A stretch of 64,000 nucleotides of DNA from Owenia fusiformis (Eukaryota; Annelida; Polychaeta; Sabellida; Oweniidae). Of the stretch, positions 643-53,930 are shown in pieces; positions within the stretch are counted from its first letter, which is position 1; the number at the start of each line of letters is the position of its first letter. A program made the translations under genes and the position numbers. The notes beneath the pieces are model-generated. The model saw nothing but the letters and a program-made list of their open reading frames with translations. It searched no databases and was not told the DNA's origin. The stretch lies in NCBI GenBank assembly GCA_903813345.2, contig CAIIXF020000011.1, positions 33,160,166-33,224,165 on the forward strand. The letters run 5' to 3'.

Positions 643-726
643 CTTTATATCTGTGAGTCCATTAGGCTTGATAATCTCCAGCTCCTGTTGTTGGGCCAGA
701 AGGGTACGACGAAGCGTACGCCGTTT
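643..726 (-). CDS. GRIN1: GRIN1 alternative tail exon B (84 bp)
   Basis: 28 codons between a TTTCAG acceptor and an AAG|GTAAAT donor, phase 0 at both ends. The peptide opens with [17 protein letters not shown] and ends NGLTDIK. It would follow RWRSNIE directly, giving NIEKRRTLRR, which reads well as an invertebrate GluN1 tail. A further exon must lie left of the window, or the frame reads through to a stop 13 codons later. It could belong to another minus-strand gene, but phase and composition favour GRIN1. Confidence 0.65.
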
Positions 727-3700
727 CTGAAACACACAAATCATGAAATGTACAGTTGTTTCACTTATCAAAACATATTTAACACAATATGCAGATTTCG
801 TCACTGTTCCAGCACTGTCATTGAAACCTTTCAAAATTTGCCACCTGACTAGTCAGTCCATTTGAAATTTGACACCAAAACGGTGTCGAAAATCAGATAT
901 ATATCATTTGAGGATAACCTTCACTTCTGTCTGAAGTCTTATAATGCTAGGAGAAAGCTATTGAAAATGGCGCCAGAGGATCCTACTCATATCATGTACA
1001 ATTTCTTTTTTAATGGCACAATATAGTTACATGATAATATTTATCTACACTGTATATGTTTTCATCATAACTCTGAAAGTATAAATGAAATCTAGATGTA
1101 TTGGGCATTTATGATTTTTTTTATAAAAAATAATGTTTTTGACCAGCTTGGGGGAGCAGTTTTGTATTTCACATTTTAAACTGCATTCTCCCCCAAGCTG
1201 GACAGAAAAAATAAACATTATTTAATTTTAGATAGCTTATACTCCCACCATTAGTGGACTTCAAACAGCAAATGATATATCCATTGCATAGAGTAGTTAA
1301 TTTTCATGGTATAAAGAAACATATGAGTTAAAAATAATTTGTGAAGTTTTTCTCAGTGTTTTATGAAAAATAGCATGCTCCCCCAAGCTGGACAAATCTT
1401 TTGATGACAACCAAGGATAACATGAAATTCAAACATATCACAATGTTCTAATGTAGAACACTGTTCTGTACAATCATGTACTTTAATCTGCAACATAGCA
1501 CAACATATACAAATGTAACATAACATTATGTTACATAACATTACAAAGATTAACAAACAGCATACTGAGTATGCCAGATGTAAAAGACACAACTTTCCTA
1601 TATTTTTCTCTATCCTAGATAAACATTAGTTAATATGATATATATACTAACTGACAAGAGAACTAAAAAGGAAAATGCAAACACTGTGCATCATATTTAA
1701 AATAACCTTAATAATAAAAAGTAAAAGCATTAAATCATCCTTTTATAATCATGTATAAATTACCAATCTTTGGACCTGTCTTTTTACAATTAATGACATA
1801 GCATGTTAGACCTGTAGCAAGGAGGCCAAAAAATTCTTAAAATACTTTATGTACATGTATAAATTAAATACCAATGAAAAGCTTAAATACTCAAGTGTAT
1901 GGGGAACCAAGGTTAATTAAAATACTTCAGGTGCTTGTTACTAGCTGGGATATAAACATGATATTGACCTTTTGGCCCATTAATCTTTCTGTTTCTTTCT
2001 TTTTAATTTGGTTTGCACCATTTGAAAGCTAATCCTTCAAGGAATACAGACAAATAATCTTGTTAAATCGTGTTTTGTGGGGTAATATCACTAGTCTTGC
2101 AGTTAAAGCGACTTAGGTGTTGTTCTGTGGTGTAAGTAGAATATTTTCAGTGGTTTTGATCACCACTTTAATGTGCAAAATTTCAGCAAACATTTCATTT
2201 GCATGAGCTCGATGGAAAAAAAATTCAAATTCTCAATATATACAGTCAGTATATATATCTATTGAAGGCCCGTGAATTATGTAAGGGTAACTCATTGATT
2301 GAAGCAAACAGGGTCGTCATTGTCCACAACCCAAAATATATTATAAGCAGTGCATAAAGCATTTTTCCATTCAACAATAATATTCACAGCTACTGATTCA
2401 TTAGTTATTGCATATCTTAATTGTGTGGAAGATAGAACATAGGAATTTTAGCAGTCTAAAGTAAGTTTGAGTGCTTTCTGACCAATTGTATCTTCTAATT
2501 TATGAGGTGCTACTTCAACATCAGGGAAAACAAAGCTCATTTTGATCCTTGAGCATCACAAAGTTGTAATAAAAAATTAAAATATATTTCTAATACATTT
2601 TGGACCCCCATTAATGTCTCATAAAGATGCTCAACAAGTTGAAGCTTCCCGCATATCAAAATGAATGGTATTTCAATAGAGGAAACAGCCAAACTGCATC
2701 CCATCTGAAAACCTCCTTTAGCTCTTATACAAATATTATTTTTCACTAAAAAAACTAAAAAAGTTAAATCAAACAAAAGTTCTTTTCTATCAATTAAGGG
2801 AATATGAAGAATACTTCAGATACTCTGAGCAATAATTTTCAAGGAAGCAAATCAAAAAAGGGAAAGAAAGTTCTTTTCTATCAATTAAGGGAATATGAAG
2901 AATACTTCAGATACTCTGAGCAATAATTTTCAAGGAAGCAAATCAAAAAAAGGGAAAGAGGAAAATATGATAGAGTGCCATAGAAAAATTTACTCCAGAT
3001 CAGTCAAAGTCTCAAATTGTCATTAATTGTCATTTATACATTGCCTCATAATTTCAACCTATCATGTGAGGGTTGATATATAATTCAAATGTTAGAACTA
3101 TATAAGATGCTGAATTATAAAATAACTCAGATGTATACATGAATATAGCCAGAGTAATAAGATCTACAACAAGAAAGTTATAGATAATTCATATCCGATC
3201 ACAGAAAATATCCGGTAAGATTTTGTAATTTTTCAATACAAAAGAATTCTATGATGTTTGAATAATCTGAATTGGTAAGATTTCATCAAATATTAACCTT
3301 TCTTTGCTAATCCATATTAGTAATATACATAAATTGATAAATTATTTCACATTAGGGTGCTAATAAAAGTGGAAATGAATGTTTTATCATCTCTGTAAGT
3401 ATCAAAAGCGTTAACAATTTTACAAATACCTGGGATTACATTTATACATACACATACACTATATACATTGTATTTCCATGAAGTTATGTCCTGAATAATA
3501 TTCTACATGTATATACATTGTATTTTCAATACCTGCAGAGTGAGGGTCTTGCACCTTTAAGACTTACGCTATATAGTTTATTCTGCATTTACATATGTAA
3601 TATATTTCCAATTCATTTACACATGAGGTTATGCACCATAAAGGGTAGGCAATAAAAATGGGACACTTTGTATCATTCTTAGTAGTATGTAAGATCACAC

Positions 3701-6700
3701 AGATAAACCATGTGTTATATACCAAAAGATGGGGAATTCATTTAGCTTTAATATATATATTAAGATATAATATTACGTGACTTATCTTCAATGTTGTAGT
3801 AATTGTGTCAGTTTTTGTGAATGTGATTCATAAACACAGATTTTACAATCTAAAAATGAAGTAATTCATAAAAAGGATGTCTCATTTGTCAGCCTCTATC
3901 TGTGATAATAGCTATCTATCTCATAAAATTCATTAATGTCCATTATGTATGCCTTCTGAAACTTTTGCTTCCATTCTGTTGTTGATACTGTAAAACACTT
4001 AATATCTGCTACATGCATTATTCGCGAGAGTGCCACCCCAGGTCAATTTGCTACACATTATATTCGCAGTATGCAAAAATTCACAAAAGAACCCCCCGCC
4101 AAATTGAAGGATTTTTTTCCCAGAGAGAGTCCCCGATTTGATCTTCATTATTTCCACTAAAGACTATTGGATATTGATTTAAAATGCGTAATTAACCTAT
4201 TATCATAACATAGTTCCATTCTTGCATAGAAATGCTGATTGTCAATTTTTTGGAACAATTCATACAAGATGCCCATTAAACATTATTTTTTACAATAAAA
4301 AGTCATAATGTATGTTACCATTTTATTCTTAGCAAATACAAATAACATAGATATTTTGGCAAAAAAATAAGGAGAAATAATAAAGAATGGTACCTAAAAT
4401 TGAGGAAAGATTCTGCAATTTCAAAAGCTGTTTTTTATGTGGCACATTTCTTGCTAGAAGAAAAAAATAATGAAGACTTAATTGCATTGTTTGAATTAAA
4501 ATTTTACGTGCATGACCAGAAATATTCATAATACATTATACTCCCTAATTCTCATGGCATTTGGTTCATATCTGCTCTTAAAATATATATGTGAGTGTCC
4601 CACTTTTTTGCCATACCTATAATTTATTCTATACACATTGCATAGTTAATACATTTATGCACCCACTATACAGTTTATTCTGAACTCTTTTTATTCTGAC
4701 AGTGATGGACTTGATGATGTTTGTTCTGCTTGGCCTGATCCTTGCAACATGTACTTCTGCAGTCCCAAGAAATCATCGAAATGAGAATTTAGTCCTTTAT
4801 GAAAATCCTCCACCAAAATGCTGTACACCGTATCAATGGCATGCCAATATCACCCAGGTTCAAGTATTCGAATTCAGGCATCGCCATCCCACAGAGCAGA
4901 AAACAATCATAGGAGGTCATATGTGGTTTGATGGGAAAGATGAAAAAACTGCCCTCCGCATTAACGTCTTAAATGGAGGTCCTCAAGTAATTACCATCAT
5001 CCAAGATTTCAAGGCTAACAAACGTTATGGAATAAACAATGAAAAAAAGACCTGTAATGTTATGCCAACGGTCTACCCTAAACCAGAACGCTGTATTCCG
5101 GATGATGCTGAATTTCTGGGAGAAGAAATACTTGGTAAGAGCTTAAAGGTGAACTCGTGGAAAGCTTCATTTAAAGGTAAAACATACCAAGTGGGGAAAC
5201 TTTTCACAATGACAGATACCTGTATTCCAGTAACAAGCATTATGGCTGGTGAACTCAGTTCTTCTCAATTGGAATGTGGCATATTAATGACAACAACAAC
5301 ATCCAACTTCATAGAGGGAATCAAAGATTTCAGCATATTTGACATACCCGATTACTGCAATAAGTAACTGTACATGTAAATCCATCCTGAATCGCATTTG
5401 CTACACTGATAAGATCTAAGCATTCTCAAATGGATCATCTAGAGATGTTTGAATGTGATATTAGCTTATATTAGTTCACTGAGTCAAAATATTTATCTTT
5501 CAATAGAAAAACTGAATTTGTTTTAATGGCAAAAAAGTTTCCATGAATGTTAAGAACGATATAGAGGCTTTTGATGTAAATTTAAATTTCCATTTGGTAC
5601 AAATTAATCAAAATTGAAACTTTCTGATCTTTTACAATTAACAGCAACAAAATATACTGCCATGGAAACGGGCCTTATCTTTAATGAGCAATAAAAAATA
5701 TACAAAACAAAGTACATGTGTTGTTAGTTTAAAGACTGACATATATTAAAGCGGATATTAAAAATTGCTATGAGTATCAAAAAGTGCTGGCGCTAATGTT
5801 TTTATGAAATTTTGGCAATGAATTGTTTGTATACTTTTGTGAACTATTGGAATTAACTCAAGGATAAAAAGTGTTAAAAGAGAAAATACCATAACAAAAG
5901 CTGTCAATTTATAAAGGTTTGTGATGAGACAACAAATCCCTGAATCGGAGGGCATAAGTTCAGCACAGATCAGTTTGGTTTTAATGTGAAATAGTTGCCA
6001 AAGCAACATCAAAAGAATAAAATAGTGTACTTTCAAATGTTGTAGATTTTGGTTACCATGGCATCAGTGATATTGAAATACCATTATTTCAGAAAAACTT
6101 GCAAGCTGTTATACTTGGCTCTATTTATGAAAGCTAGTATTATCATTCAAAAAGTTTTATCTCAAGATGATGATGTTACATTTTTCATGTGCATTCTTCA
6201 TTGTGATTTAAAATGATTAAAACATTTTAATCACGATCTTGTAAAGGTACTATAGTCATAGGATTCCTAGTTTTTATCATAGTTACTCTTCTAATTTTGC
6301 TCTATTCATCTTTATGTAAAAGACCGACAGCCACCTACTGACCACGTGTACCCAACTTTGGAGAGTGACAGGTCGGTGGTCAATCTTTTTCGTAAAACCA
6401 TTCTGACACCCCCGGCTTCCCTAATAGATGCGATAAATGAATTAAGTTGCATATTGAGTTATTGGCCAAATCCCTGATGGATTAGCTCTAAAATAATGCA
6501 AACTAAATTAAATTTGGAAAGAAACTGACAGATACATGAATGAAAATGTGAATATCATGTTTATATCCGCAGCATCTGCTACAATAATGTTTCTAAAAAA
6601 GTACAACTTTGAAGCCTTATTTAACCCTGGTTCCATACTTGAGTATATAAGCTTTCAAACAGTATATGATTCATCCACAAGGTATTCTGGAAATAACTGC

Positions 6701-9700
6701 CATTTTTAAGCAACTAGTAGTCAAAGTATCTTACAAATATTAGTTAACCACACAGAGTGGAGCACTAACTGAACAGTATTAAAGTCTCTACAAAATTGAA
6801 TACACCATGTAGTTTGGTTAGGTAACCTCCTTCTCTACAAACATCCTAAGAGTCATCCAAGAGTGAGGGGGAGAATTTGAAAATCACTTTCCATGCAGGA
6901 ATAAAGGTGGGCCATGTTTTTGAAAATGACTAATTTTCGAAACTTTTGACCCATATTTTCAACCTATACTTCTTCTTCAGTACCATGCCTACTTTCACCA
7001 ATGGGGCTGGGAGTGAAGGGAAGAATAATATTGGATCACGATGCACATAAACACAAACATACCTTGTGATCCTTACTCAGATAAGCATGGATAGACCCTA
7101 TGTAATCTACCACCTGACTGATGGAGCAATTTCTTATGTATTATTTCCATAACTTTTTGGTGTATAGCATCCATTGCTATACAAAACAAGGCTTTAACAT
7201 GCAAAATGTCACCACCCATTTGTTACAGATGTTGAAAGAATTTGTTACAGATGCTGAATGCCAAACCCCCATCCACAAAAAGTTGGAGACAGTAACAATA
7301 TGTCTGCACTTCTGGTGGTGACATGGAAATAGTCAGTGGGATAAAGCAAATCAGGAAATCATTATTCATGAAGATCTATTATGTTGTTAGACCAATCTTA
7401 CTAGCTTAATATGTACTATACCATTTTGTGAACTCTGTATGGTGATTATAGCTGGGATAAATTCCTGTCGTCTCTTCTTGCGTTTCTGAAATGTTTTGTG
7501 AATAAAATATTGCTCCAAGAATAAACCTGGTAAATGATTATTAGTCTCAGTACTTACTGTTAGTCTGCAAAGCAAAATGTCTATGTGTTGCAGGCGTTTT
7601 TATATCAAGCTTCATTAGTTAGGTAATAAAATCAATGCATCAACTCACCATGCTTTTAAACCTAGGTCTGGGTTACTGACACTAGAATGCTGTGTTATGG
7701 TGTTACAGCTTTATCATGATGTTACAATATTGTTATTTACTTATTTTTAGATCTTTGTTAAATAAAGCTGTAATATGTTATTATGGTTGCACATATTATA
7801 CCATGGTGTCACAATTGCATAATGTGACAACTGTAATTATGATCTTATGTGACCAGGGGATGAAAAAAAGCCAAAAATCAACTTAAAAATGATAAGTATA
7901 CAGGCTGAGCCATATCTTTCTACCAATACTCTACTCTTTTGACATTATCTTGGTAACATAAGAATTAAGAAAAGGTGCTGCCATCTTTATACTTATACAA
8001 GATTTATAACTACATATAGGTCATAAAAGTCAACATAGGCTCACTCTATGTCCTTAGAGAGTTGAGCCCAGCCTTACTAGAAAAAACTAACTTCTGGAGT
8101 AGTTAATCGCACCAAACACAACATATTTCATCAAATCATCCATCAAAATTGTAAACACATTTCTACATCAACAGCTTCTCTTTGTCCCTTAATCTCAACT
8201 TAGATCGCTGGGCAATTACTCCTTTACTTATCCACATTGACTACATAGAAAGACACATTCAAATCATTTGGGTTTAAAAATAGAGAATATATGAGTTCAA
8301 AGCCAATGCAAGGAATTGATTCATGCCCCATACCTAGAACTACAGTATACATGAAATGGTTTTATCAAGCCACTGGAAGAGAAATATATAATAAGCATTA
8401 TTGCCATAACCCCACCTAATTCTTATCAATACAAACACTATGAAGCCAACATGCAACTGGGGTATATCCCTGACCCCAAGAAATATAAAACCTTATCTAT
8501 ATTAAGCCAAAAATCTACAAAGATAATGTTAAAGCTAATTAGCACACAAGTAAGGATGTTGAGCTCCTGGCAATGAATAACAAACATTTGGCCAATCTCT
8601 CTCATATACCCTAATCTACATGTACTAAGACTACAAAACCATTGAGTTTATTTAGTCATTATATGAAAATAGAGCATCTGTCAGCGTCTGTAATACAATA
8701 AATGATGACACAAAGCTAAAGATTGAGCAGCTTAATTCAAAAATAGTTGGCGAATCTCTGCCATATATCCTAGTTTATTTAGACTACAAAGCCAATGGGT
8801 CCATGACTATGAAGCAAGTAGTCGATTATATGAATATAGAGAAGTAAAAACCACAGCCACAGCCCAAACTACAACAAAGTTAAACCTTGAGCTATTAAAG
8901 CAAAAACTATTTCGTCACTGTCTGCCATACACAACATGTATACCACCCCTACAGTACTTAAACTACAAAGTAAAGTAGTTTATTTGCTACAGCCCCCAAC
9001 TATGATACAAAGCTTAACCCTGAAGGTATCTCTGTTCACACACTTACGTGAATCTGCAGTCAAGACAAAACACATAATATGCATGTAAGTTAGTTTGTTA
9101 GTGCAACACTACACAACTGCCAGTTTGTTAGTGCAACACTACACAACTGCCAGTTTGTTAGTGCAACACTATACAACTGCCAGTTTGTTAGTGCAACACT
9201 ACACAACTGCCAGTTTGTTAGTGCAACACTACACAACTGCCAGTTTGTTAGTGCAACACTACACAACTGCCAGTTTGTAAGTGCAACACTACACAACTGC
9301 CAGTTTGTTAGTGCAACACTATACAACTGCCAGTTTGTTAGTGCAACACTATACAACTGCCAGTTTGTTAGTGCAACACTATACAACTGCCATTCCAAGT
9401 TAAGTTATGAGACATAAGTAAATTTGGCCATAACTTTACATTCAATATTTTAGTATTATGTGAGGTATTTAACCATCTCTCTAAGATTATCTCACTACCT
9501 AACTACATGTTAAAGAAAGTACAGGCAGTTTTGCATATTTTTTATCACACTCAATATTAGAGATTGTTAGTACAATAGAACATGTATGTTACTATTAAGC
9601 ACATGAGAACATAGCATGGATGGATGTTAGTATTGCTACACAAAATTGATCATGTGAAGTATCAAAAAATATTAGTATGTCATCTAGGGATACATTTAAC

Positions 9701-12700
9701 ATACACAATAATATTCTGTCTGGGAATCTATAATATATTTGTACCAAATATCATGCATACATTTTACTGTACAATATTAACTATTATAATTTTAAACAAA
9801 AGTATTTTACAACTAGAAATATGCAATATAAAAATTTATTCAAAGGAAACATATAACGGTGAAAATATTCAAAAGACTATTTATCAAATATCCATTTCAC
9901 ATCATCCTCATTGTAACTCACCACCTTGATATTTATTTGGCAACAGTATTTCAAGGTCATGAAAGGTCGATATGTGGTATATCGATCAAGGTCCAAAAAA
10001 AAAAAATACATGGAGTTATTTCTTAAGTTTTGCCATTCTGCTGGGTCGAGTCGTCCCAGTCCAAGGTCACTTTAAGGACAAAGGTCGGCTGATTGGTCAA
10101 TGTATGGGTCTTGTATCAAAAGTAAAAGATATTATATTAAAATATTATGCAATACCTCAATATTACTGCGCCATCTATCTGCTGCATGCCTTGCTAGCTC
10201 CATTTCCTTCTCTCTCATCCCTCGGTGGCGTTTGTAGGCAATCTCAACAAAAATGACAAGAACCCCTGTTACTATACCCCCTGCTACCATAAGGAACACA
10301 CCTGTAGAATAAATGCAATATATTTTTAAAATGGTTTGAAAAACTCTTTATAGTTATACATGCAATGAGTGAAAAATGAAATTGAGGGGAAAATGAGAAT
10401 GCACAATAAACAAATAAACAAGGACAAGCAAAATGTCACCAAATTACAAGTAAGGTTCCAGTTTACCTGCCATGTTAGTGAGTCCCAGAGTGGCTGGGGC
10501 AGAATTACTCTCTTCACAGTCCTGGCCTTTAAACAAGATCCATTTACCATCAAGTTCTTCCATATAGCCCTCTGAAGTAACATGAAAAATAATGGTATGT
10601 AAACAATGTTACCATTAGATGACATTATTATATTTGTATACCTGACGATGCTGATAAGAATAGTGAGATGTCTTTTAGGTACGATTTAAATGATAAAGTC
10701 TTGAGATATTAAAGTAAACATCACAAAGTGACATTATTGTAAGATCACTAATTAACTGGTTTTATAACTGGAATTGATAAAATAGTTTTATATATCTTGT
10801 CATCTTGATTAATACAATTATGTAATATAACTAGAAAAACAGCAACTCCACGGAGTAGCAAATCCCACCGAACAAAACATATTATGCTTATCATAGCTAG
10901 TGTAAATGTTGAAATGTTTGTGCACTTTGTGATAGAAGCATGAAATTTGGCACAAAGTTAGTTTATACCATTGTGAACTAGGCATCATCATATAAAATTT
11001 GAACCAAATCCGTTCACTGGTATATGAGTTATCAAAGATTACATTTTTTACAAAAATTATCTGCCATCTTGAAATTCAGCCGCCATCTTGAAAATTATTT
11101 CTTGAACAGAGCTACTGTGTCCCTAGGCATTATCATATAAAATTTCAACCAAATCTGTTCACTGGTTATCAAAGATTACATTTTTTTACGAAAAATTGCC
11201 GCCATTTTGAAATTAAGCGACCATCTTGAAAAGTTTTTGTCGAATATAGCTACTTTGTCCCTAAGCATATCATATAAGTGGCCATCTTGAAAATCTCTTT
11301 TTGTGCGAAACTCCATATAAAATTTGAACAAATCCGTCAACTTGTATATGAGTTATCAACTATTACATTTTTTACAAAAAATGGCAGCCATTTTGAATTG
11401 AGCGGCCATATTGAAAATTCCTTCTCGAGCAGAGGTCCTACACTCATAAGGCATAAGCCTATAAAATTTGAACCAAATCTGTCAACCGGTATTGGAGTTA
11501 TCGCCCCGACGAACGGACGGATGGACAGCTTCTCTATATCCCCCTCGAACTTCGTTCGGTGGGATAATCATATGTAACTATATACACTTGTATGGGTGTC
11601 AGTTGCCTGTACAGTGAACATTGATATAATTGATGAATAAAACAACTATGCAAAATAAAAAATATGGTCTATAATAAGGACCATAATAACTGCCTTAATA
11701 TTACATTGCTTAAACATACCAATGGTAGAAACTTGCAATCTGACATGATATATTAATGTATAATTTATCAAAACATCTTGATCTTACTTTCATGAAAGGC
11801 AAGAATCTTGAGGGAGATATCACTGGTCCAAGGACTGTCTTTGGGGAGCCCTACAGCATAGCCTGATCTTCCAAACATCTCCCCTGCTGTTAGCAGATCG
11901 CAATATTGCTCTGCCTCAAACTCAAGCCTTGAAGAGTCCCATATAAATGCTGACAAGACACCACTGGAATATAATACTTTAAAATTAAATGATGAATCAT
12001 TGATGTTAAAAACTGAGGTCTAACTATGTAATATGCGACTTAATATAAAAGCTAAGGGTCTAACCCCTGATATAAAAATGAAACTTTCCAAGAATGTGGC
12101 TAAAACATTAGTTATAACCCAAATTTGCCAGTTACATTTGAACAGTCATTTTAAACATGGATCTGATTTTGAAATCACAATACAGTGTTTGGGTTTTGTA
12201 AAATTTAAACATTTAATCAAGTACAAATCTATAATATTAAAGACAGAAATATAAAATGTATCTTTTTACTCTTTCACATCTTGAATAGCTTCTTCGGGGT
12301 TGTTGTAGTTCCTTTTCTCCATTGTCCGATACATGGTAGAGAGTTCCACTTGGCGTTTGAAGTACATTGACACTGCACTGTTTTTCACTGTAGCATATGT
12401 GTATTTGTCTTGGGGATTGCGAAGCTGAAATGGAGAAATACCACATTTTATAAAAACATACCCTGTATATAGGTACAAATCTGAGTTTAACACTGCTTGA
12501 TCTTGATATAGATGTTAAGATTAAGGTTTAATGAGATGGAGTCGGTCATGGATGACAATTTAACAATTTTATGTTCCCACTTGCTATGTTTGATAACATT
12601 TACATGTGTTCTTTCAATTAGGGTATAAGTGACAAGTGTACCATCATTAATGAACTCAGATGAATATTTTTCACATTTATATGTGGGCATTTACACATTA

Positions 12701-15700
12701 TGGAAGAATACATAGTTTAAAATCAGAATATTCGATATTTACACATTATGGAAGAATACATAGTTTAAAATCAGAATATTTAATAAAGTTGTACTGAAAC
12801 CTCCCAAAAATATTTTCATCTTATTTTGTAATGTGGAACCAATTTAATTGTGACACTTACCCTGGCATCATCAATCCCAGATATAGAAGCCTTGGGTCTG
12901 TCAAGCACCAGGAAAGCAGCCAAGTTAGCAGTGTAAGAGGCCACAATGATCATAGCGAATCCTGCCCACACCATCCCTACTACCCGAGCACTGAAGCTCC
13001 TTGGGGTACCTAAAAACATTGAAAGTTAGAATCAGAGCCCAAGACAGCAATAATTGCATATGATGTGATCATTTCAGAATCACTTTCAAATATTTCTTTC
13101 CATGTTTATTTTCTAAAATAAATTTCACATTATTTTGAAATATTCATGGATTTAAATGTGACTGTTAATTTTTTTTGTAAATACATGTAATTCTCACAAT
13201 AATAGGACTGTTGCATAACATTGCAAAATTTGGTAGATAAGAATAAATAACAAATTATATTAAAATTAAAAATATTATTTCCTAAAACATTTATATTAAA
13301 TATATACAAATATTTTGTCCAGAGAAAAAGTTAAATTTAGTTCAACAAATCATGAGTGGTTCTTCAGGAGGAATTTTAAACAAAAGTAAAATATATAAAT
13401 ACCTTCCCCAATGCCACTGTTAAGCAGCACCCCCCAAGCAAACCAGAGGGCGCTGGAAAGATTCAATGCATCCTCTTCAGTATCATCAGACTTTGCCAGC
13501 TTAAATCGGCCAAATGGACTAAATCTGTCGAGTAAATAGAGCACTAGTGCTACCACATGGACTGAGAGTGCCACCAAGATCCAAAGTGTGTTTTTGAAAG
13601 GTTGCAGGAATGAACCAAGACCAGATTGTGTATTTTCCTGAAAGCAAGAGACAACAATTTAAGATTCTTTTTTAGACTATTGATACAAATTAATGTATGA
13701 TCTTTGATAAATTTCTATTTTTGAGATAATAATTTGTCTGATGATATATTTTGTGATTTCCAAACGAATATTGTCCAGGTGACATTACATCCAAAACAAA
13801 TTTGACAATCATGATTCATCTAAATGGAACATTACTTAAGAAACATAAAACACAATTTTATTTCTCATACAAAGTTAACATTTAGACACACCTTTTTGAC
13901 AAGAATCCTCAAGCCCTGATATTTGAATGGCTTTGAAAAGTCGATATGATCAGCTCTCTCTGGGTTAATTGTTAGTGGAGCCATGATGAGGTCTGCCTTC
14001 CCTTCCTTTACTTCTTGTACCATACCATTCCATGTCTTAGTGTTGGAACCATTTATCTGAAACACAATTATTTAACAACTGTGTATTTTCATCAAAACCC
14101 CTAGTGGGTGTCTGTTAACCTTTCCTATTCAAAAACCCTGAAGATTTATTATTCAACTTCAAAAATAATTGCAAACGTGAATCCTGCATCTTGCCAAAAA
14201 TATTTCTAAAATAAATGCATCATTGAAAAAAGTCATAACCAAATAAAAAATATTGATGTTTTTGGCCGATTCTGGATGTCAAGTACGATAGATTAACATA
14301 CCCGTTCATAACTGCCATATTGTCCATCCGACACAAGATGGAGATCAAAAGTAAAACTGATGTTCAATGCAAGTTGGATCAACAAATCAATGCAGTAGCC
14401 CTCGCAACACATCTCCGTTGTGTTTCCTAAAATGGCAATATGTTAACATGTAAATGGATTCAGCAGCTGAAAGGGTACTGAGAAGGATAATAAGGATAAG
14501 GATAATAGCATATTATATATTATATAGATAAAGAAAGGAATTTCATCAAGATTATTTTCCACGATCCAAGAAAAACTGAAAAAAGATGGCGGCATACTGG
14601 AAATGAAAAGTGAATTTTCAATTTTGATCATACGAAAATATTTTATCATAATTTTACTAGATACAAATAATTGATAATAGGTTTTGGCAAGCAAATGAAG
14701 AGAGTGATGGGCTTGGAAGGAGTACACCTTCAAAGAAGAGTTTTCCTCAGAGACAATAACTCACCAGTTGTTTGATTTTTGAATGGACAGAGGACTCTTC
14801 CATCCTCCACATTACAAGATTCCATTTCAGATAGAGGTTTGGTATACACAAATGGTGTCTCTGCTATGGTCACAACCTAGGAAACCATTAAGAATGTATC
14901 AATGGCCAGCATTAAAACAACCGGTCGTTGTTCCACAAGCAGAAATTATATGTAATTTTATATGTGTACAGTAAAACAATTCTTAGTGGAACACCTTTGG
15001 TACCTCTAAAATGTCTTCCACTTGATAGGTGTTCGAGGTTCATTTATCATAATGTCAGTTGATTTTGCGACTCTGAAAAGCATTCCTCTAACTGAGGTTT
15101 TCCACTTCAAGAGGTTACATTGTAATACATGTATCATGGAATATAAAAATTCATAGTATAGAGCACATTAGCCTTAACACCCCCATAACCAAATGTTACA
15201 TTTTGCATGCTTTATTGTATTAAGCAAATGTATGTCCTTACCTTAAGACGAGTTTCCAGTTTAATCCCTTTTGGTACATCATCTATATTTGGCGGCCATT
15301 TTATTGAACTCGAGTTATCCATGTTAACTGTTAATTGTTTCTGCAATAACAAAAAACACAATATTGTGAATAACCCTTCAGTATTGCAGTATAAAACATA
15401 GAAAAAAGGCATTTTAAATTTTTAAATTTAAAAAAGGTGCAATATATGTGATCAAATTTACAATGACAATATTTCCAATCTAAGTAAATCACAGATGTCT
15501 TTCATTTGAGTATTATAACATTTCAGAGAGATATCAAATTAAAGAAAATTCCTGTTTTTTTGGATATATAATATAGATATTTCTAAAAGTGTCAAACGTA
15601 CAATGGTAGTACACATTACTTTGGCTGGAAATGACAAAATAGATGGATGGACAGATGGGAACACATTGATGACTGGCTGGGTGGAGGGCTTCATTCAATA

Positions 15701-18700
15701 TCCCAATGGAACTAAGTTTGTTGGTATAGTAAAAGATGTTACTAACCGTGCGTCTAATTTCCCTAACATAGGTTTTTCCAATGACAACAGGACCATTTTC
15801 CTGGATGTTGACAATGTTATACAGCGGTTGAACTCTATCCCCATCCTTAGAGAACTTAATGCTTCCAGTTTGCCCATAATCAAGGACTTGCTTTATCAAT
15901 TCACTGGAAATAGGAAAAATAAAAGTTATTATTGTGCCATAAACATACATACATCAATATATTTAAACATGCATCAATAAATCTAAAAACATGCATGTAT
16001 CAATTAAAATCTAAAATGTTTCTTCCAGTCATAATCTGTGTAATAAGACATTTAAATGTAGTGATCATCAATCCTTTCTTAACATTTCATAACTTGTTCA
16101 ACTCTTTCATAATTCGTGTAGATTGCATTAAAATTGTCTAAGTATTTTTGGTGCATTTAAACTTGGAATTGTTTATTTGGAAATGTTATGGACAGAACTG
16201 ATCTCCTTGATTCATGGAGGACTAAAAATTTAAAAAAATTTAAATACAAAAGATTTTAATTTGATCGCTATTAAGTCAGACAGAAAAACATCCATGAGAT
16301 ATATAAGAACATCATTCTATTTGATAACACTTACTCGTAGACCAACTCTCCTCCAAGCACAGTCTCATCCTCTTCTACCCATGGGTAAGCCTCACAATCT
16401 GTAGGAGCCTCAATTAGTGAAACTTTTGGATTCATGTAGATAGACTGGAAAGCTTTAGCAATTATTTGTAGACTGTCTCTAATGTGTTTTTCTTCTTCCA
16501 TCCAGTCTACTAGGCTTGCCCCTAGGAAACCTAAATAAAAAAGTAAATTATACACTCAGGGCTTTTTAAGCAGCAGGCAACAGGCAATTTTCAACGGTTG
16601 TTTTCACAAAATCGCCTGCTGTTTTTAGGGACTTTTCAACTTTTCCATGTTAAATTTATAATTTCCATTTATTTTGCCTGTTGTTTTCATTTATTTAGTC
16701 TGTTGTGAGAAATTCTGCCCCTGACACTATTGATTATTTTTGTTGTTGCCTGTGATGAAATATGTGACTAAACTGAAACAGGTTATTTCATTCAATTCTT
16801 CAAGATACATGATTTTTCTCTGACTAAAAACCATTCTCAGTTACTCCTATATAAGATAATTTGTTCATTATGGAGTTTAAGATTGCATATAAAACCGAAA
16901 CGCCAACCTATACGTATGATCAATCGTCAATTCAAATGCATCGCTTAAATGTTTTCCATTCACGTTAAGGTTGTGAAAAACATTACAAGCTTAAACTCCC
17001 TATTATTTACAAAATTTACCTATGGGTACATCTGGTAGTGTGAGAAGTTGCTCTGTTACTATCCAAGCATAACCAGGCTGGGTGAGATTCAATGCTACAG
17101 CATCACGTATGATATTCTGGCCATCTTCTCGACTACAATAAAGTAGATGAGAAATATGATTTCAAAATTGGTAATGATAAACCTTTGGAAGAAAACAATC
17201 GATTAAATATAAAATGAAAACCTTATATTATAAATTAATTATGCTTTACTGCATTCTAGCATTGGACAGAACAGAATTGGAATAGATTCCAAAACTTGCC
17301 TTCATAATTTGCAACTCTCAAAATCTCATACCTAATTGGCTTACTACATGTATTGTAAATACAAAATCTTCAGACATTCTATATTTTCAGTTCTAGGATA
17401 AGAGTATGGCAGATCAAAATAATTTATGAATCAGTTTATTGCATATGAAAACTCTATAAAGTAAACTCAACATTTTTATCTACTTTTATTGGTTTTGTTT
17501 ATTCAATTTACATAAGCAAGTTTTCAAATGTTCTTTACAGAGAATGATAAACTCTATGAAATATCTGAACACTGAGTCCTCTTGAGCGTCCTCTGAAAGT
17601 CCATTTCTGAAGGTAAAATTAATTGCTCAGATTGGACAAGAACTCCTTTTCCTGCAAGCCTTCATTGTTATGATTCACTGCCAAATTAATAACTATGAGT
17701 TACAAAAGAAGTTACAAACAGTACTTACTCAGCATATAGTAGGATAACCCTAGTAGTTAACTCTATGATATCTGTGTCCAACAGCTCAGACATATAGCTA
17801 TCCAAACCTGGAGTCAATGCTATGGTTTTTTCAATCTAAAATTAAAGGACAATTGAAAATAATTTTCAAACCAATTCTAATACCAACTTAATTCATGGAA
17901 AAGTAAAAGTACAACAACGATATAATGATTAGAGAGAGAAGAAATATAAGAGAGGAACTGTAGATAGGGACTTTGTTTCATATTCTAACTCTATTTTAGA
18001 GGTGATTAAGATTTCAAAATCAAAGCTACATGTATATCTGCCCTATTTGTCGTTTAAATTACTAATAGCACTGGACCTCAGGCTAACAAATGGTCCTTAT
18101 CACCAAAAATCAATTTGGATCCTTGATTCTAAGATTCCCAATGAAACTTGGTGATGTGCAAATATTTTAAGCTGTAGTTGTAGTCTATTGGATTCTAGAT
18201 GCAGATTTGGAACTGCAGGGATATTAATATGAAGACTTATTGATTTTCTAGTTTAGAAGCTAAGACACTCGCAAGTGATATTTTATGTGATATGTGAAAT
18301 TGGAGGAAAAGTCAATCCGCATGTATGCAATATTCTTAAGTGTCAAAGCGGTCCATTCGATATTTCTCACATAAGCTATATTGTGACAAAAGCCTTTCCA
18401 CTTCATATGGCAGACACATTAATATCACAGTACCCTTTTTCAGGTTTTCTCCTATACTCTTACAATAAAACTTGTTTTTTACCTTATCTTTAACCAGTCG
18501 GATCTTGGGTAGCTTCCAAATAAGAATTGTTGTCATGGCACTTTCTCGCTTCAAAATGTCGCTGGCATAAATTCTATGTGAACTCCCATTACATAAAAGG
18601 CTCAGACTCTTACATTAAGGATCATTAAGATCTGATAAGTATCAAAACTGTTAAATTGTCTCTCTTAATCAGAGGTAATAATGATTTTTAACTTATTGAT

Positions 18701-21700
18701 CTCAGGGTATTGAGAAGTTGTTTCAGCAGTTTTTGCAAAGATATACTAATAGCATTTCCATTTCCCCCAAGAGGCTAATAACTACATTATGTGTTGTTTA
18801 AATGAGTTCAAGCTCTCCTACTGAATAACATTAGATTCATGATCTTAGAGAGTATTAGTTGGTGGAAGTTCAACAATGCCATTAACATTTATCTCAGAGG
18901 CATGCACAAAGGGATTTTTACTTTATCTCAGACATGCATGTACAACAAGGGTGCTTGCACATTACAGAGATTTTTCATGTTTCAATATGAACCGTATTGT
19001 CAAGAATTAAAGCATCATCATAATCCAATCGCAGGGCTCCAAGATATCTTCTTTACATGTGATTGGAGAAACGAATTCAGCAGCTTGTTTTTGGAGGATG
19101 TAAAACGTGGGTAATTCTAAATATCAAAATCAAAAAGTTCAATGTTTAGTACCTTCATATTTTTGTAGTCCATTCTGTTTTGAAATTCTGCCAAAATAGC
19201 TCTGCCATCGTGATCGGCTGTGTGGAGGAATATAACGCTCTTCCATTTAAAATGACGCACCAAGTTCACCCAAATCTCTGCCTGTTCAGAGAATGGTGGG
19301 ACCGTCCTCATAAAAAATGGATGTATTCCCTACAATAACATCGTAATCAATTTGTAAATCTTAATCTAGTTTATAAGTCACAATGCAGGGCATCCATATA
19401 TTTTATCTTCAGTTCATCTTTATAAAGGTCCACGTGCAGTATGGCAAGTGATTTTAGACCGTCATATATCTTTCACAATGAGTACTTTCTGGGCATGAAT
19501 AATATGTTTTCTTTCAAGTGAAGTCCCCATGATGATAAAAATATCAATCGAACAATTAGAAAGTTATAAATAGGGACCCACCGTCAACAATTTTTCAAAA
19601 TGTTGAACTTATTTGCTCAAAAGAGGATCTTCTTTTTCTAATTTTTATTGCAGGAAAAGATTATTCAAAAAGGGGTCTAAAACATCTTCAAAAGTAGAAT
19701 GGTATTCTGTATTGAGAGACTAGTTTTGAAGACATCAATTTTCGATGACCAAAAGCATGCTGAAAACAATGGATAGCATGAGTTTTCACTATGGGAAAAT
19801 AACATGGGAAATATGGTTTTTAACTTTATCGCATTTCAATACCCATCCGCTTTTCAGAAGTTATTAATATAGTGTAGAAGAAAATGTTGATATATTTAAA
19901 TTGAGAAAAACACGATCCTCTTAAGAAAATAAGCCTTACATTTTTTTAAAAAGTGACAAGGTGGGGTTCTTATCCATAATTTTTCAGAGAGTTGGACTGA
20001 TATTTTACTATCATGGGGACTTCACTTTAAAGAAAACATATTGTTTTAATAAAAACCACTGTATTTATAACCAGAAAGTATACTCATGGTGAAACATGTG
20101 GCTGTCTAAAATCACTTGCCATACTGCACATGGACCTTTAATCTTATTTTTAGTAAAAATGAATAAAGATGTCTGAAAGGCTAAACCAAAAAATTGTGGA
20201 ACTTTAATTCTACAGGTTTCCAGAAATATACATGTTTTATTAGACTGTAGAACATTAAACACACAGGGCAGTTTTCAAGAAGCAGAACAAATTATAAGTG
20301 GATTAGGAAATGTTATTTCAAGATCCAACTTACTTGCTATTTGATCAGCTGTAATGATGATATAAATGTGTTATCTGAGGCTAGAGTAAATAAAAATATT
20401 TTTAGATGTCCATGTGGCATTCATGGATAATGTTTAACACAATCTAACTTACTTTAGCCTTAAATCAGACCAGGATGTTTATCTGTTTTCACTTAGTAGC
20501 TATGTGTATATTTATTCATGGATGTCTATTAGAATATATAAATTCATCTAATATTGCTTGAAATTCTAAAGGGTATGATTTCATCTTTACACTTAGTTTT
20601 GTTGCTAAAGTATTGCTGGGGAAAGTATTTATGGTTAATGAATTGATATAACCAAAAAGGCAGTCAAGAACATAGAAATTATGAAAAAATCACATTTTTG
20701 ATTGCATCTTTGGGAAAATTTGAAATTCAATTCATATGTTCTTCATAATTTAAATAAGACATTTAAAAAATAACATTAGTCAAAGGTGAAGATAACAAAC
20801 AAGCTTTTCTAGAAATGTTAATTTTCTATTTCTGTCTAGCTTTTGCAGGGGGGTTCACTTTTACAAAATTCGCTTGAACACTCAAACCCTCGACCCCCCC
20901 CCTCCCAGCAGCTACAGTATGGGCCTGTAAAAGATTTGACTTTCCTGCTTCATAAGTTGAGCACATTTCTCTACTCCCTTGACTCCCTTGTTAACAATGT
21001 ACTTTTGGTATTTCCAAAGCTGAGAAAAGTGCCAGTGGCCAAAATTATCTTTGATGACATATCCATGACTAAAGAAAAATAGTAACAATTTTCATCTTAT
21101 GCCTGACAAAAACTCTCCAGACACTCCAAAGGATAGTGAAGAGAGTTATTGTTATTGAGAAAAAGAATATTGTTTTTGAACATTCTTTCAATCTTATGGC
21201 ACTAAGACTTATTTCATGTACATGTATATGGATCTGGTGAGGCCTCAGGCCCTGGGGTTTTTCATGGGACTAAAAACAGTCTTTATTAGGGCTCACTCTA
21301 TTTATAAAATTGATTACAAAGCCATTATTTAAAAAAAATTGCCAAATACATGTACTATGGGTTTTTGACCACCCTCTCTTGTCAATTTCCATATCCCCCT
21401 TGTTATTTAGACAACATCAATAGGTTTGCATGTATTTACATTACCTTATCAGAAAAGATGCTTTCTCTGGCAGAGAGTCCAATTACAGGAATCATATAAT
21501 ATCCACAAGTGAACGATACAGCTATGGGTGACAACTCCTGACTTGGCGGATGACTGGCTAATACTGTATAAACCTGCTTTGAGAGTAAATTGCTACATGT
21601 GGACTGAGCTGCACGAATTGGATTCTCTTGCATGACTAAAGACGTGGCATTAAAAACAACACCTTGGGGTAGCGCCCCTAGTTCCCGATTCAGATCTCTA

Positions 21701-21858
21701 ACAGCCTGGTGAAATACATCCTCACTTTCTTGGGAACTAAGCACAGCTCCGATCATAATTTGCTTGGGATTGATCACAGGATCGCTATACGATGAGACAG
21801 ATGTTGATGAAATACATAAGCAAATCCCAAGAAGGATGAGTCTGTGATATATTGCCAT
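643..21858 (-). CDS. GRIN1: NMDA-type ionotropic glutamate receptor subunit 1 (GluN1), multi-exon gene, 3' end off window
   Basis: Obligatory glycine/D-serine-binding subunit of the NMDA receptor, a postsynaptic Ca2+-permeable channel. Coding exons in transcript order: 21858-21445, 19329-19153, 17835-17729, 17132-17020, 16530-16335, 15903-15747, 15340-15242, 14876-14765, 14426-14302, 14056-13892, 13637-13403, 13009-12861, 12424-12270, 11963-11788, 10571-10467, 10301-10156, then alternative tail exons 7485-7402 and/or 726-643. Every junction has AG/GT and keeps phase; with one tail exon this gives 905 codons (rat GluN1 938). Visible: signal peptide, amino-terminal domain, S1 ([15 protein letters not shown]), M2 with [12 protein letters not shown] (channel Asn kept), M3 [16 protein letters not shown]2 with FIWDS, M4. 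Glycine-site Pro, Thr and Arg of APLTINPER and the Asp of FIWDS are kept; the Ser688 position is Ala. Disulfide cysteines (SCNV, LCPF, CC, YCDL, DCEE) are kept. The terminal exon is missing. Identity is firm; exon ends are inferred, and 15747 is the least certain donor. Confidence 0.95.
1143..1391. repeat. Inverted and direct 14-bp repeat, three copies
   Basis: CCAGCTTGGGGGAG at 1143-1156, its exact reverse complement at 1188-1201 and again at 1378-1391. The first two form a potential hairpin with a 31-base loop. It lies in the long GRIN1 tail intron; function unknown, probably a small foldback element remnant. Confidence 0.7.
2778..2960. repeat. Tandem duplication, two copies of about 91 bp
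   Basis: The segment starting AGTTCTTTTCTATCAATTAA occurs twice in a row with a 91-base period and almost no differences, so the duplication is recent. Intronic to GRIN1. Confidence 0.85.
4705..5367 (+). CDS. Ependymin-related secreted glycoprotein
   Basis: 220-residue protein of the ependymin/EPDR family: secreted, lysosomal or extracellular-matrix proteins with a lipid-binding fold, common in molluscs, echinoderms and fish. An N-terminal signal peptide ends near TCTSA. Then come the family Cys-Cys ([10 protein letters not shown]), a possible glycosylation site (ANIT), further single cysteines (KTCNV, ERCIPD, DTCIPV, LECGI) and the usual ending of the type [11 protein letters not shown]. 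The length is typical (about 200-220). I start at ATG 4705; a GTG in frame just upstream is not a eukaryotic start. A TTCTGACAG acceptor ends at 4702, so the 5'UTR probably lies in an upstream exon, while the coding part is one exon. The gene lies antisense inside the GRIN1 tail intron. Confidence 0.9.
   Translation: MDLMMFVLLGLILATCTSAVPRNHRNENLVLYENPPPKCCTPYQWHANITQVQVFEFRHRHPTEQKTIIGGHMWFDGKDEKTALRINVLNGGPQVITIIQDFKANKRYGINNEKKTCNVMPTVYPKPERCIPDDAEFLGEEILGKSLKVNSWKASFKGKTYQVGKLFTMTDTCIPVTSIMAGELSSSQLECGILMTTTTSNFIEGIKDFSIFDIPDYCNK
5690..5695 (+). terminator. Polyadenylation signal AATAAA for the ependymin-related gene
   Basis: AATAAA about 320 bases past the stop codon, in an A-rich stretch. 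It is the first good signal downstream; the cleavage site is not shown. Confidence 0.5.
7183..7326 (-). repeat. Dispersed repeat family R1, copy a (reverse orientation)
   Basis: Reverse-orientation copy of a roughly 150-bp interspersed element that also occurs at about 33560, 37760, 39740 and 43748. Recognisable parts are GTCACCACC next to its inverse, a TCTCCAACTTT block, a TCTGTAACAAATG block and the end GTGACATTTTGCATGTT..CCTTGTTT. In this copy, the TTGTTACAGATG block is duplicated. Confidence 0.7.
7402..7485 (-). CDS. GRIN1: GRIN1 alternative tail exon A (84 bp)
   Basis: 28 codons between a TTTCAG acceptor and a CTA|GTAAGA donor, phase 0 at both ends. The peptide opens with the basic run KRKKRRQEF and contains an Asn-Gly near residue 21. 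If the donor is skipped, the frame stops 13 bases later at 7389-7387, so it could also serve as a short terminal exon. It matches exon B (643-726) in length, phase, basic start and Asn-Gly position. Assignment to GRIN1 rests on phase, strand, order and the basic tail character, not on close homology. Confidence 0.65.
9091..9391. repeat. 30-bp minisatellite, 10 copies
   Basis: Ten head-to-tail 30-base units beginning AGTTTGTTAGTGCAACACTA, differing at only a few positions (TACAC/TATAC, one TTAG to TAAG). Because 30 is a multiple of 3 and the unit has no stop in some frames, both strands show artificial open frames. Intronic to GRIN1. Confidence 0.95.
10156..10301 (-). CDS. GRIN1: GRIN1 exon carrying M4 and proximal cytoplasmic tail
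   Basis: Last constant coding exon in the window. It encodes M4 (residues around [20 protein letters not shown]) followed by the conserved juxtamembrane AYKRHRG and a charged helical segment ending RWRSNIE. It ends in phase 0 at GAG|GTATTG, and both 84-bp tail exons downstream start in phase 0 with Lys-Arg, as expected for the basic C0-like tail. Confidence 0.93.
10862..11565. mobile_element. About 700-bp element with 12-bp terminal inverted repeats and internal degenerate repeats
   Basis: Ends are ATCCCACCGAAC (10862-10873) and its exact inverse GTTCGGTGGGAT (11554-11565). The inside is built of three or four diverged units of about 110-130 bases, each containing CATATAAAATTTGAACCAAAT, a GAGTTATCAA..TTACATTTTTTAC block and GCCATCTTGAAAAT. 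Near the right end is a CGACGAACGGACGGATGGAC segment. No protein is encoded. It looks like a non-autonomous element (MITE-like or foldback) in the GRIN1 intron between the exons at 11788 and 10571. Confidence 0.7.
12690..12783. repeat. Tandem duplication, two copies of 46 bp
   Basis: TTTACACATTATGGAAGAAT and the following bases are repeated 46 bases later with one or two changes, inside a GRIN1 intron. Confidence 0.85.
12861..13009 (-). CDS. GRIN1: GRIN1 exon carrying M3 gate
   Basis: Exon 12. It encodes [20 protein letters not shown] and the gate signature [15 protein letters not shown], shared by essentially all ionotropic glutamate receptors, then the start of S2 (SISGIDDAR). It joins in phase to the flanking exons: GIGEG spans the upstream junction and DAR/LRNP the downstream one. 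Confidence 0.93.
13403..13637 (-). CDS. GRIN1: GRIN1 exon carrying M1 and the pore loop M2
   Basis: Exon 11 of the gene, phase 0 in and phase 1 out. It encodes M1 ([21 protein letters not shown]), an acidic linker ([10 protein letters not shown]) and the re-entrant pore loop [17 protein letters not shown]. The Asn of LLNSGIG is the N-site that sets Ca2+ permeability and Mg2+ block in rat GluN1, so this subunit should behave as a standard GluN1 pore. Confidence 0.93.
19433..20140. mobile_element. 708-bp non-autonomous element with ~125-bp terminal inverted repeats
   Basis: The left end TAAAGGTCCACGTGCAGTAT and following TGGCAAGTGATTTTAGAC return inverted at 20140-20100, and the match continues inward through ..TTTCTTTCAAGTGAAGTCCC at about 19511-19531 to the inverse at about 20010-20030. 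The interior has no usable frame. This fits a MITE-like DNA element in GRIN1 intron 1. Confidence 0.75.
21445..21858 (-). CDS. GRIN1: GRIN1 coding exon 1: signal peptide and start of amino-terminal domain
   Basis: 138 codons from ATG at 21858 to a GTAATG donor. A hydrophobic leader (residues about 5-20) is a signal peptide. The amino-terminal (LIVBP-like) domain follows, with the Cys of STCSNLL matching the rat GluN1 C79 region and [14 protein letters not shown] matching the well-conserved VIGLSARDSIFSDK stretch. A good acceptor (TTTTCAG) lies 61 bases upstream of the ATG at about 21922, so there is probably a 5'UTR intron; a CAG|GTATGA donor ending at about 22464 could close an upstream non-coding exon, but this is only a guess. 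Confidence 0.93.
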
Positions 21859-36671: not shown

Positions 36672-38025
36672 TCATGGGTCAAAGTGGAGCTTCTTCACTC
36701 CAATGATTGCCTCTTGTTCGCAAGCAGAGAGGATGCACACCTGAAATTATAAGTAAGACACAATCAGTTTTAGTTCATTAAAGCCAAGCATTGCATCACA
36801 TTTTTGTGTATTGTGGGACAGATTGAGTTGTTTAGTAACATACATACACTACTTAGTACCTAGGGAAGACTTGATAAGAGACATATAATGTATTATGTAG
36901 CTTGTGATTAGTGAGAATGTTTTGTTCAGCAAAACGGAGCATTGGGGGATTGAATGTAACATTTGTGAATATTTTCATAATTTTATTGCCAAAAATCAGG
37001 TTTTCAGCTATTTAAATATGTAAGCTTAGTACCCATGGTACTTTTATATTATTTTACATTAGTGATATCAGTAAATGCATTGTTCAGTTAATTCTAAGAA
37101 TCTGTTTGAATTTTCATCCCTGCTTATATACAGATTCTCTCTTTAATGTTAAACTTACAGCGATATCCTCTTCCTGTTTGATGCGATCATGAATCTCCTT
37201 CCCTAGTCCATTGTCAGGAACCTTCAGGTCACGCCTGATCTCCCCATTCTCCAACAACAGCGATATGTAACCATCATGGGCCACAGACAACACCTAAATT
37301 GATATATCATACAGAGTTAATTGAAGCAATTATTAAACTAATTGAAATATGGTTCCACAAACAAATCATCCCAAATTTTGTTTTGAGGAAAGATAAATTG
37401 CTTTATACAACTCTTATCACGATGATTTTGTTATAAATATTATTCTATCTTCAACTTCAAGTACGAGCAGATTGATTTCAAACAAATTGCAAAATCAACC
37501 AATCACTGACATGTATTTCATTTTTGTTGACCTCTGGGACAGACATTGTGTGCTTTGATGGGCAGCTATCCTCATAGCGTGACCCAGTGAAAATGTCCAG
37601 GCCAACAAGTTGAATCTGAAATAAGGAAATAAATTATAGTTCAACTTAATATGTATATTTTATGTGTACTTTAGTTAAAGAAATTCATAATTTATTTATT
37701 AAAGTATTTTGAAGATTATAGCATTGCCATGGAGTATGAAATTCTCATTTATAATGTCAACACTACAAGTGTTGGTCTGCGTTTGTAACAAATGACATCG
37801 CATCTGTAACAAATGGCAGGTTGTGACATTTTGCATGTTAATGCCTTGTTTCTCCTGTCTTACCTTTGCATGACCGTGTTTCCCAGGTGAAGCACTGGAG
37901 AGGTTCACAATTTTACATGGGTGACCTTTAATCATCACATGACCACCCTTCCTCAGGGTTGAACATTGGACGGGGTAGCAGGATGCAGCCCCTGCCCCGG
38001 AGGAGGCGAAACTTTCTTCTGTCAT
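36672..38025 (-). CDS. EIF5A: Eukaryotic translation initiation factor 5A, 4 coding exons
   Basis: eIF5A binds the ribosomal E site and promotes elongation through poorly reactive sequences (such as polyproline) and termination; it is the only protein with hypusine. Exons: 38025-37864, 37615-37532, 37293-37159, 36740-36672, all AG/GT and in phase; 149 residues (human 154). The hypusine loop [11 protein letters not shown] is intact, the modified lysine being residue 49. The SH3-like N-domain ([24 protein letters not shown]) and OB-fold C-domain ([35 protein letters not shown]) are both complete. The start ATG (38025) gives an N-terminus of normal length; the frame is open upstream to the acceptor at 38058, so an upstream leader exon exists. 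The C-terminus is slightly short and ends KKLHFDP. The donor at 37531 (GAG|GTCAAC) is weak but fixed by phase. Confidence 0.97.
37760..37852 (+). repeat. Dispersed repeat family R1, copy c (partial)
   Basis: Contains GTCTGCGTTTGTAACAAATG, a second TCTGTAACAAATGGCAGGTT, and the end GTGACATTTTGCATGTTAAT..CCTTGTTT. It lies in the first mapped eIF5A intron, ending about 10 bases from the donor of the upstream exon. Confidence 0.75.
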
Positions 38026-38581
38026 TTCTGCTTGTTGTGTTCTTTTCAACCAAACCCCTAAATAAGGAGAAATTATACATAGTTTACTTTACATATTATA
38101 AAGAATAATGTAAAACTCAAGACCATTTCAATTGCAACCAGAAACTTCTAATTAGCCTTCACGTGAAAATATCCGGTGTTTATTTTAGATGGATATTCAC
38201 ATAGTGTATGTTAAAGTGTTACTTATTTTAAAGACTTAAATGTTATCATTTTGGTAACAATGTAATTATGAATTTTGCTTACCTTAACACCTGCAGTTGT
38301 GAAATAGTTTTAACAGAAACTTGAAATGTTCTTAAATATACAATAGAGATTACAACTTGTGGTGCAATCCTCATAGTCATCAGGGGGTCATTAACAGAAA
38401 TTTCGTAGAGTTACGAATTAGTAAATCAATTGTTGTAACCATGGATATAATGACGTCACAGTTAGAGAACAATGGATTTTATGAATTGTTAACTTTAAGA
38501 AGTTTCTGTTTATGGCCCCCAGATTATCAGATTGCAGCGCTACTACACATTTGTGTTAAGTTGATTGCAGAACCATCTATA

Positions 38582-48663: not shown

Positions 48664-48675
48664 GCGATGTAACGT

Positions 48676-53396: not shown

Positions 53397-53930
53397 GTAA
53401 GTGATTATTTTAATTCCTTAATTTTGCAATTTGATGCAAATAGTCTTGAGAGATTCCCGGTAGAGGATTAGATTACGACCAATAACTTGTTATAATTTTT
53501 TGGGTAAATTGTATACTAGTAACTCTCATTCAGGGGTTCAGCGCTCATTACACGATCGCGAGTTTACACCATTAATACATATTCACGAGAGAGAGTTCGA
53601 ATTTGGAATCAAAAGTGATTACGGAGTTGCTGTACTGTTAAAATGAAGAGTTAAGAATGTAATGGATCCAGTTCAACTATTAACCATGTTCGAGTTGCCA
53701 TAATCTTAATAAGTATATGATAATATAATGAAATAAAAATAGACATGGGCCTAATGAACCACAATGGAATCATACAATATTGGCTTGATACAAACACGTT
53801 AGCCACATACACAATTTTTCTAAATAACATGGCATGAGGGCTCCATCAGATTATCGAAATTGATTTTTATTCTAACAGCTAGATAACCAATTATATTGTA
53901 TACGTGTGTCATGGTTCAAATGTCAATATG

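Follow-up and report, generated by a model that had tools for sequence, protein, structure and literature searches.

In the cytoplasmic tail of the vertebrate N-methyl-D-aspartate (NMDA) receptor subunit GluN1, the C1 exon (exon 21 of GRIN1), phase 0 and 111 nt long, is optional and brings basic residues next to the C0 segment. It follows C0 directly at the boundary NLQ|DR, for which the string MQLAFAAVNVWRKNLQDR is given, and calmodulin binds both C0 and C1 (PMC10453589). The KKK and RRR motifs of C1 have been named as signals for retention in the endoplasmic reticulum (ER) (PMC4245912), and a two-part nuclear signal, KRHK..., is reported to run across C0 and C1 of GluN1-1a (PMC10488196). Among protostomes, Aplysia has the GluN1 splice variants Grin1-1 and Grin1-2, whose share depends on the ganglion; in the buccal ganglion, Grin1-2 dominated the expression of NMDA receptors in most of the six animals; the accessible text of that report does not state the site at which the two differ (PMC5225553). 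Ryan and others found the length of the NR1 tail not to be markedly different between vertebrates and invertebrates (PMC2257970). Beyond the Aplysia variant, no alternative GluN1 tail exons in invertebrates were described in the accessible text of the literature searched. Here we report on the tail of the GRIN1 gene of the annelid Owenia fusiformis, which lies on the minus strand of a window of 64,000 nt (contig positions 33160166-33224165) of a 498-Mb genome and which contains two segments of 84 nt, A and B, at the joint where vertebrates have C1. Exon B is secure, and A may be an optional cassette ahead of it, a reading that we hold tentatively.

The gene was modelled by spliced alignment, with the window's own N-terminus and a human GluN1 sequence as the guide. 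This gave an 861-residue GluN1 model with GT-AG introns, which begins at the ATG at 21858, ends with SNIE (10156), contains the LNSGIGEG pore motif and has PF00060 matched in two exons; the 31-nt "intron" that the model places at 16379/16347 is a script artefact. The exon that codes for the end of M4 and for C0 had GluN1 chains as its best PDB matches (best E 3.5e-14) and matched Pfam PF10562 over model positions 1-29 of 29 (E 6.5e-13, 49.2 bits with a cut-off of 20.2), the single match to this family in the whole genome, with 11 candidates scored. The PF10562 match stops at the last residue before the C0 intron. From C0 onward the order is C0, candidate exon A, exon B and a terminal exon, with introns of 2,670, 6,675 and 667 nt and all joints in phase 0. 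The terminal exon was found in 20 kb of neighbouring contig, 667 nt past B, with the acceptor TTATTTCAG and the protein sequence VSPTSMRNPNTTNPEIVPVTSGSSSFHGNLPVVATVTRHNPTYQSGEAEDQL followed by a stop. Since it also enters in phase 0, the frame is kept by A, B, both or neither, and the number of residues after C0 is 80, 80, 108 or 52, respectively. The gene is an ordinary and secure GRIN1 with C0, exon B and a terminal exon.

An initial annotation, made from the letters alone, had described A and B as 84-nt segments, entering and leaving in phase 0 and starting with Lys-Arg, either of which can follow RWRSNIE; all of this was confirmed, whereas the terminal exon, lying beyond the window, was missing from it. 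Both segments are open and bounded by AG and GT, and they sit after the calmodulin-binding C0 exon, at the site of vertebrate C1. The acceptor junction TTTCAG|AAACG is also common to both. The Asn-Gly that it had placed near residues 21-22 is present in both segments, although out of register, at residues 21-22 in A and 22-23 in B. A listing of the remaining open segments in phase 0, from C0 as far as the terminal exon, contained none that resembled a tail exon. Alternative last exons formed by read-through (VLHNILI, VRLV or VNKLIHIGNS, then a stop) were unsupported; with 15 copies in about 13.7 kb, AATAAA is frequent in this part of the sequence, which is rich in AT. A version of A with 111 nt, starting from the upstream AG at 7512, would have a slightly better acceptor and worse codons and is a minor possibility. 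NCBIfam returned only bacterial matches under the cut-off, and in Pfam the whole tail had a sole other match, Ribosomal_L25p, also under the cut-off. In genome-wide searches for paralogues each exon matched only itself, with one candidate scored per search, so that weak relatives could be missed. Of two clade markers sought, hemerythrin and mollusc hemocyanin, each gave 0 matches, the hemocyanin result being uninformative since its controls gave none either.

The matrices used to score splice sites were built on this gene alone, with 15 of its donors and 14 of its acceptors. They omit the exon at 16530 because its 3' end is doubtful, and the bases of that exon sit in the intron training set. 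The background consisted of 154 open AG..GT segments in phase 0, each 60-129 nt long, from 18.9 kb of intron sequence. Exon B scored 7.6 bits at the acceptor, 9.1 bits at the donor and 0.434 per codon, with a GC content of 0.49 as compared with 0.31 in the introns; its splice sum was reached by none of the 154 background segments, its codon score by four, and both by none. Joined directly, C0 and B give the conserved order WR-NIE-KRRTLRR, and the Drosophila Nmdar1 tail used for comparison (KRKTIRASLAMQRQ...) likewise follows WR-x-x-IE directly. In register, B shares 7 residues of the first 28 with that tail, and the local score of 37 (16 +/- 3 in shuffles) was reached in none of 5000 shuffles. 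B is securely an exon of GRIN1; the concern that it might be a piece of a different gene was ruled out by the in-frame joins to C0 upstream and the terminal exon downstream and by the similarity to the insect tail. On the best reading, it would be the ancestral protostome tail exon.

Candidate exon A has an ordinary donor of 4.6 bits, with four of the 15 scored donors lower, and a poor acceptor of -0.8 or 1.1 bits depending on the pseudocounts; in the set that gives -0.8, which was used for comparison with the gene's own acceptors, it lies below all 14 of those scored (0.8 to 11.8). Many regulated exons show this pattern of a poor acceptor and an ordinary donor. Judged by splice and codon measures, A could be a chance segment. 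It opens with KRKKRR, six Lys or Arg codons directly after the acceptor. When the stretch from C0 to B was shuffled 1000 times with its dinucleotides kept, only two shuffles had any open segment with at least five such residues among its first six. The 1687 open AG..GT pairs counted over 168 kb, both strands included, hold no such start other than that of A, and no background segment (0/154) started with even four out of six. A TGCATG at 7203 on the minus strand, about 200 nt downstream of the A donor, is possibly an Rbfox site; about 0.10 copies are expected per 300 nt. A is probably, though not securely, an exon, and we keep the estimate no higher because the test of the basic start was picked after the sequence of A had been seen. 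We know of no counterpart of exon A in Drosophila Nmdar1.

The initial annotation took A and B for mutually exclusive exons derived from an old duplication. Comparison of the two proteins gave 3 of 28 residues identical in register, with p 0.13 for local and p 0.18 for fixed-register similarity, and 27 of the 84 nucleotides were identical where 22 +/- 4 were expected (p 0.13). Gapped global alignment of the proteins (p 0.02) was the only test favouring relatedness. The stretch from C0 to B contains four open phase-0 AG..GT segments of 84 nt, A included, and its shuffles contain 3.54 on average; since segments of this length are common by chance, the equal length of A and B is weak evidence. 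Their flanks have in common a 25-nt patch (28 where shuffles give 21 +/- 2.5, p 0.03; with random windows as the reference, p 0.06), which sits at different distances from the two donors. An old duplication is accordingly unsupported, the likeness of the flanks being weak and out of register.

Loss of the reading frame is one known way to enforce exclusion of one exon by another. Further ways are an intron that is too short, a mixture of spliceosome types and competition between RNA pairings (PMC6071210). Given the 6,675-nt intron between A and B, the U2-type donors GTAAGA (A) and GTAAAT (B) and the open frame through A and B together, exclusion based on a short intron, on spliceosome type or on frame cannot apply. 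Duplexes were calculated between flanks of 600 nt, the whole 667-nt intron between B and the terminal exon serving as the last region. Their energies were ordinary in eight of the ten region pairs and below all 15 shuffles in the other two, so that some docking may occur. All four inverted-repeat pairs of at least 20 nt lie inside the A-B intron, and none links the two sides. With no clear docking pairs, mutual exclusion was not borne out, and it would be possible only via regulators or weak pairings. An imperfect inverted repeat (1948-1999 and 6517-6568, 52 nt, 81% complementary) within the A-B intron would bring A and B closer if its arms paired. Between these arms, on the opposite strand, lies an intact one-piece ependymin frame (4684-5367, plus strand, PF00811, E 3.3e-19) with an ATG at about 4705 and a signal-like start. 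The same intron carries a recent tandem duplication of a 91-nt unit (2776-2959, two copies, 98% alike), and the C0-A intron carries ten copies of a 30-nt unit (9092-9392, 98% matches).

The basic starts of A and B had also been likened to ER-retention signals, which was not upheld. No RXR was found in A, B or the joints tested, and the KKK and RRR of C1 were absent from both by eye, so that general basicity is all they have in common with such signals. None of the kinase patterns tested was found in A, and the helical moments of four stretches were nothing unusual. Neither A nor B showed significant local similarity to the C1 sequence (p 0.26 and 0.57), A reaching p 0.04 in fixed register, and no NR1 C1 chain was among the PDB matches. 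The basic block of A does fit the general pattern of basic nuclear signals, and the C0 exon contains KRHR. Inclusion of A would lengthen the tail by 28 residues and set a block of six basic ones beside C0. Together with the KRHR of C0, KRKKRR might then act like the two-part nuclear signal of vertebrate C1 and alter the location of the receptor or of its cleaved tail. The block could also change calmodulin binding at the neighbouring C0.

Of the explanations considered, we favour, tentatively, that A is an optional cassette at the C0/C1 joint and B the ancestral tail exon. The GluN1 tail would then be coded by four phase-0 pieces, C0, A, B and the terminal exon, A most likely being left out of some transcripts and spliced in before B in the others. 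This reading draws on the end of the C0 model at the end of its exon, the phase-0 joints throughout, the basic start of A, its weak acceptor with a normal donor, the TGCATG and the Aplysia variant, and also on the resemblance of B to the Drosophila tail, which A does not share (p 0.25). Several observations weigh against it. The codon score of A, 0.113 per codon, is low, although inside the span of 0.027 to 0.537 that the 16 exons of the gene cover, and the background segments equalled A in splice sum in 19 of 154 cases, in codon score in 46 and in both in six. With the first seven residues of B fixed, what is left of its likeness to the insect tail gives p 0.10, so that much of the signal lies in the basic start, and the Drosophila string used as comparison was not found in the literature searched. 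Relatives of the tail or of exon A were absent from the viral and prokaryote contigs scanned. The background counts would suit a tail of C0-B-terminal exon, with A open by chance and never used in splicing, as would the weak acceptor and the roughly 3.5 open segments of 84 nt expected between C0 and B. We consider this unlikely, as it leaves to coincidence both the TTTCAG|AAACG common to A and B and a run of six basic residues after the acceptor, which is unique in 168 kb and of which the shuffles rarely reach even five.

It is also improbable that A and B are both constitutive and that every GluN1 has a 108-residue tail of A, B and the terminal exon. All phases would allow this, A and B together being in frame, and the inverted repeat at 1948-1999/6517-6568 could loop out a large part of the intron between A and B and so favour their joining; however, the acceptor of A is weak, and in the insect tail the conserved protein order is C0 followed directly by a B-like sequence. 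Mutually exclusive exons from an old duplication we regard as quite unlikely. A and B do agree in length, in phase and in the AAACG/Lys-Arg start, like the duplicated exclusive exons of Dscam, FGFR2 and calcium channels, and the gapped global alignment and the flank patch, albeit at different donor distances, point the same way. Exclusive exons that are not homologous are also known (PMC6071210). Unlike the Dscam, FGFR2 and calcium-channel exons, A and B have no clear homology, the other similarity tests not being significant, and are separated by a long intron with no enforced exclusion found: the three usual ways of enforcing it fail, the flank duplexes are ordinary in eight of ten region pairs, and no inverted-repeat pair of at least 20 nt joins the two sides.

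If A is used as the preferred cassette reading proposes, distant animals would each have made a splice switch of their own at the C0/C1 joint, beside the calmodulin site, and these independent solutions would allow tail function to be compared. As far as the searches of the literature show, what would be new is the variant, with its cassette at the C0 joint; given the Aplysia variant, splicing of a protostome GluN1 tail would not be the first of its kind. The convergent tail-splicing switch that the initial annotation had in mind would here take the form of a protostome's own cassette at the C1 joint, unrelated in sequence and adding a nuclear- or retention-type basic block, and we think this doubtful. 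Should A not be used, a smaller point would last: this animal and insects seem to share a B-like tail exon and the boundary of the C0 exon, and vertebrates seem to share that boundary as well.

Table 1. Parts of the Owenia fusiformis GRIN1 gene, in window positions
Feature	Position	Strand	Basis
Upstream part of GRIN1, from the ATG to the exon ending at 10467	10467..21858	-	spliced alignment
End of M4 and C0 calmodulin-binding segment; ends ...RWRSNIE, phase 0 out, donor GAG|GTATTG	10156..10301	-	Pfam, PDB, spliced model
Candidate exon A, 84 nt, phase 0, probable cassette	7402..7485	-	open frame flanked by TTTCAG and GTAAGA
Exon B, 84 nt, phase 0	643..726	-	splice scores, codon score, insect-like tail
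Terminal exon, VSPTSMRN...EDQL-stop, just outside the window	coding -25 to -183 (L002:9975-9817)	-	enters in phase 0

Upstream of GRIN1 the window contains parts of other genes and repeats. An exon of a translation factor 5A gene lies at 37699-38088 on the minus strand (PF21485, E 2.4e-18), and one of a sulfotransferase-family gene at 42747-43298 on the plus strand (PF13469, E 1.7e-15). A frame of 711 codons at 46686-48821 (minus strand) with reverse transcriptase (PF00078) and zf-RVT matches belongs to a LINE-type element. A long tandem repeat at 53876-56371 is open in several frames on both strands, reading NAVKYGTNQND-type units on the plus strand.

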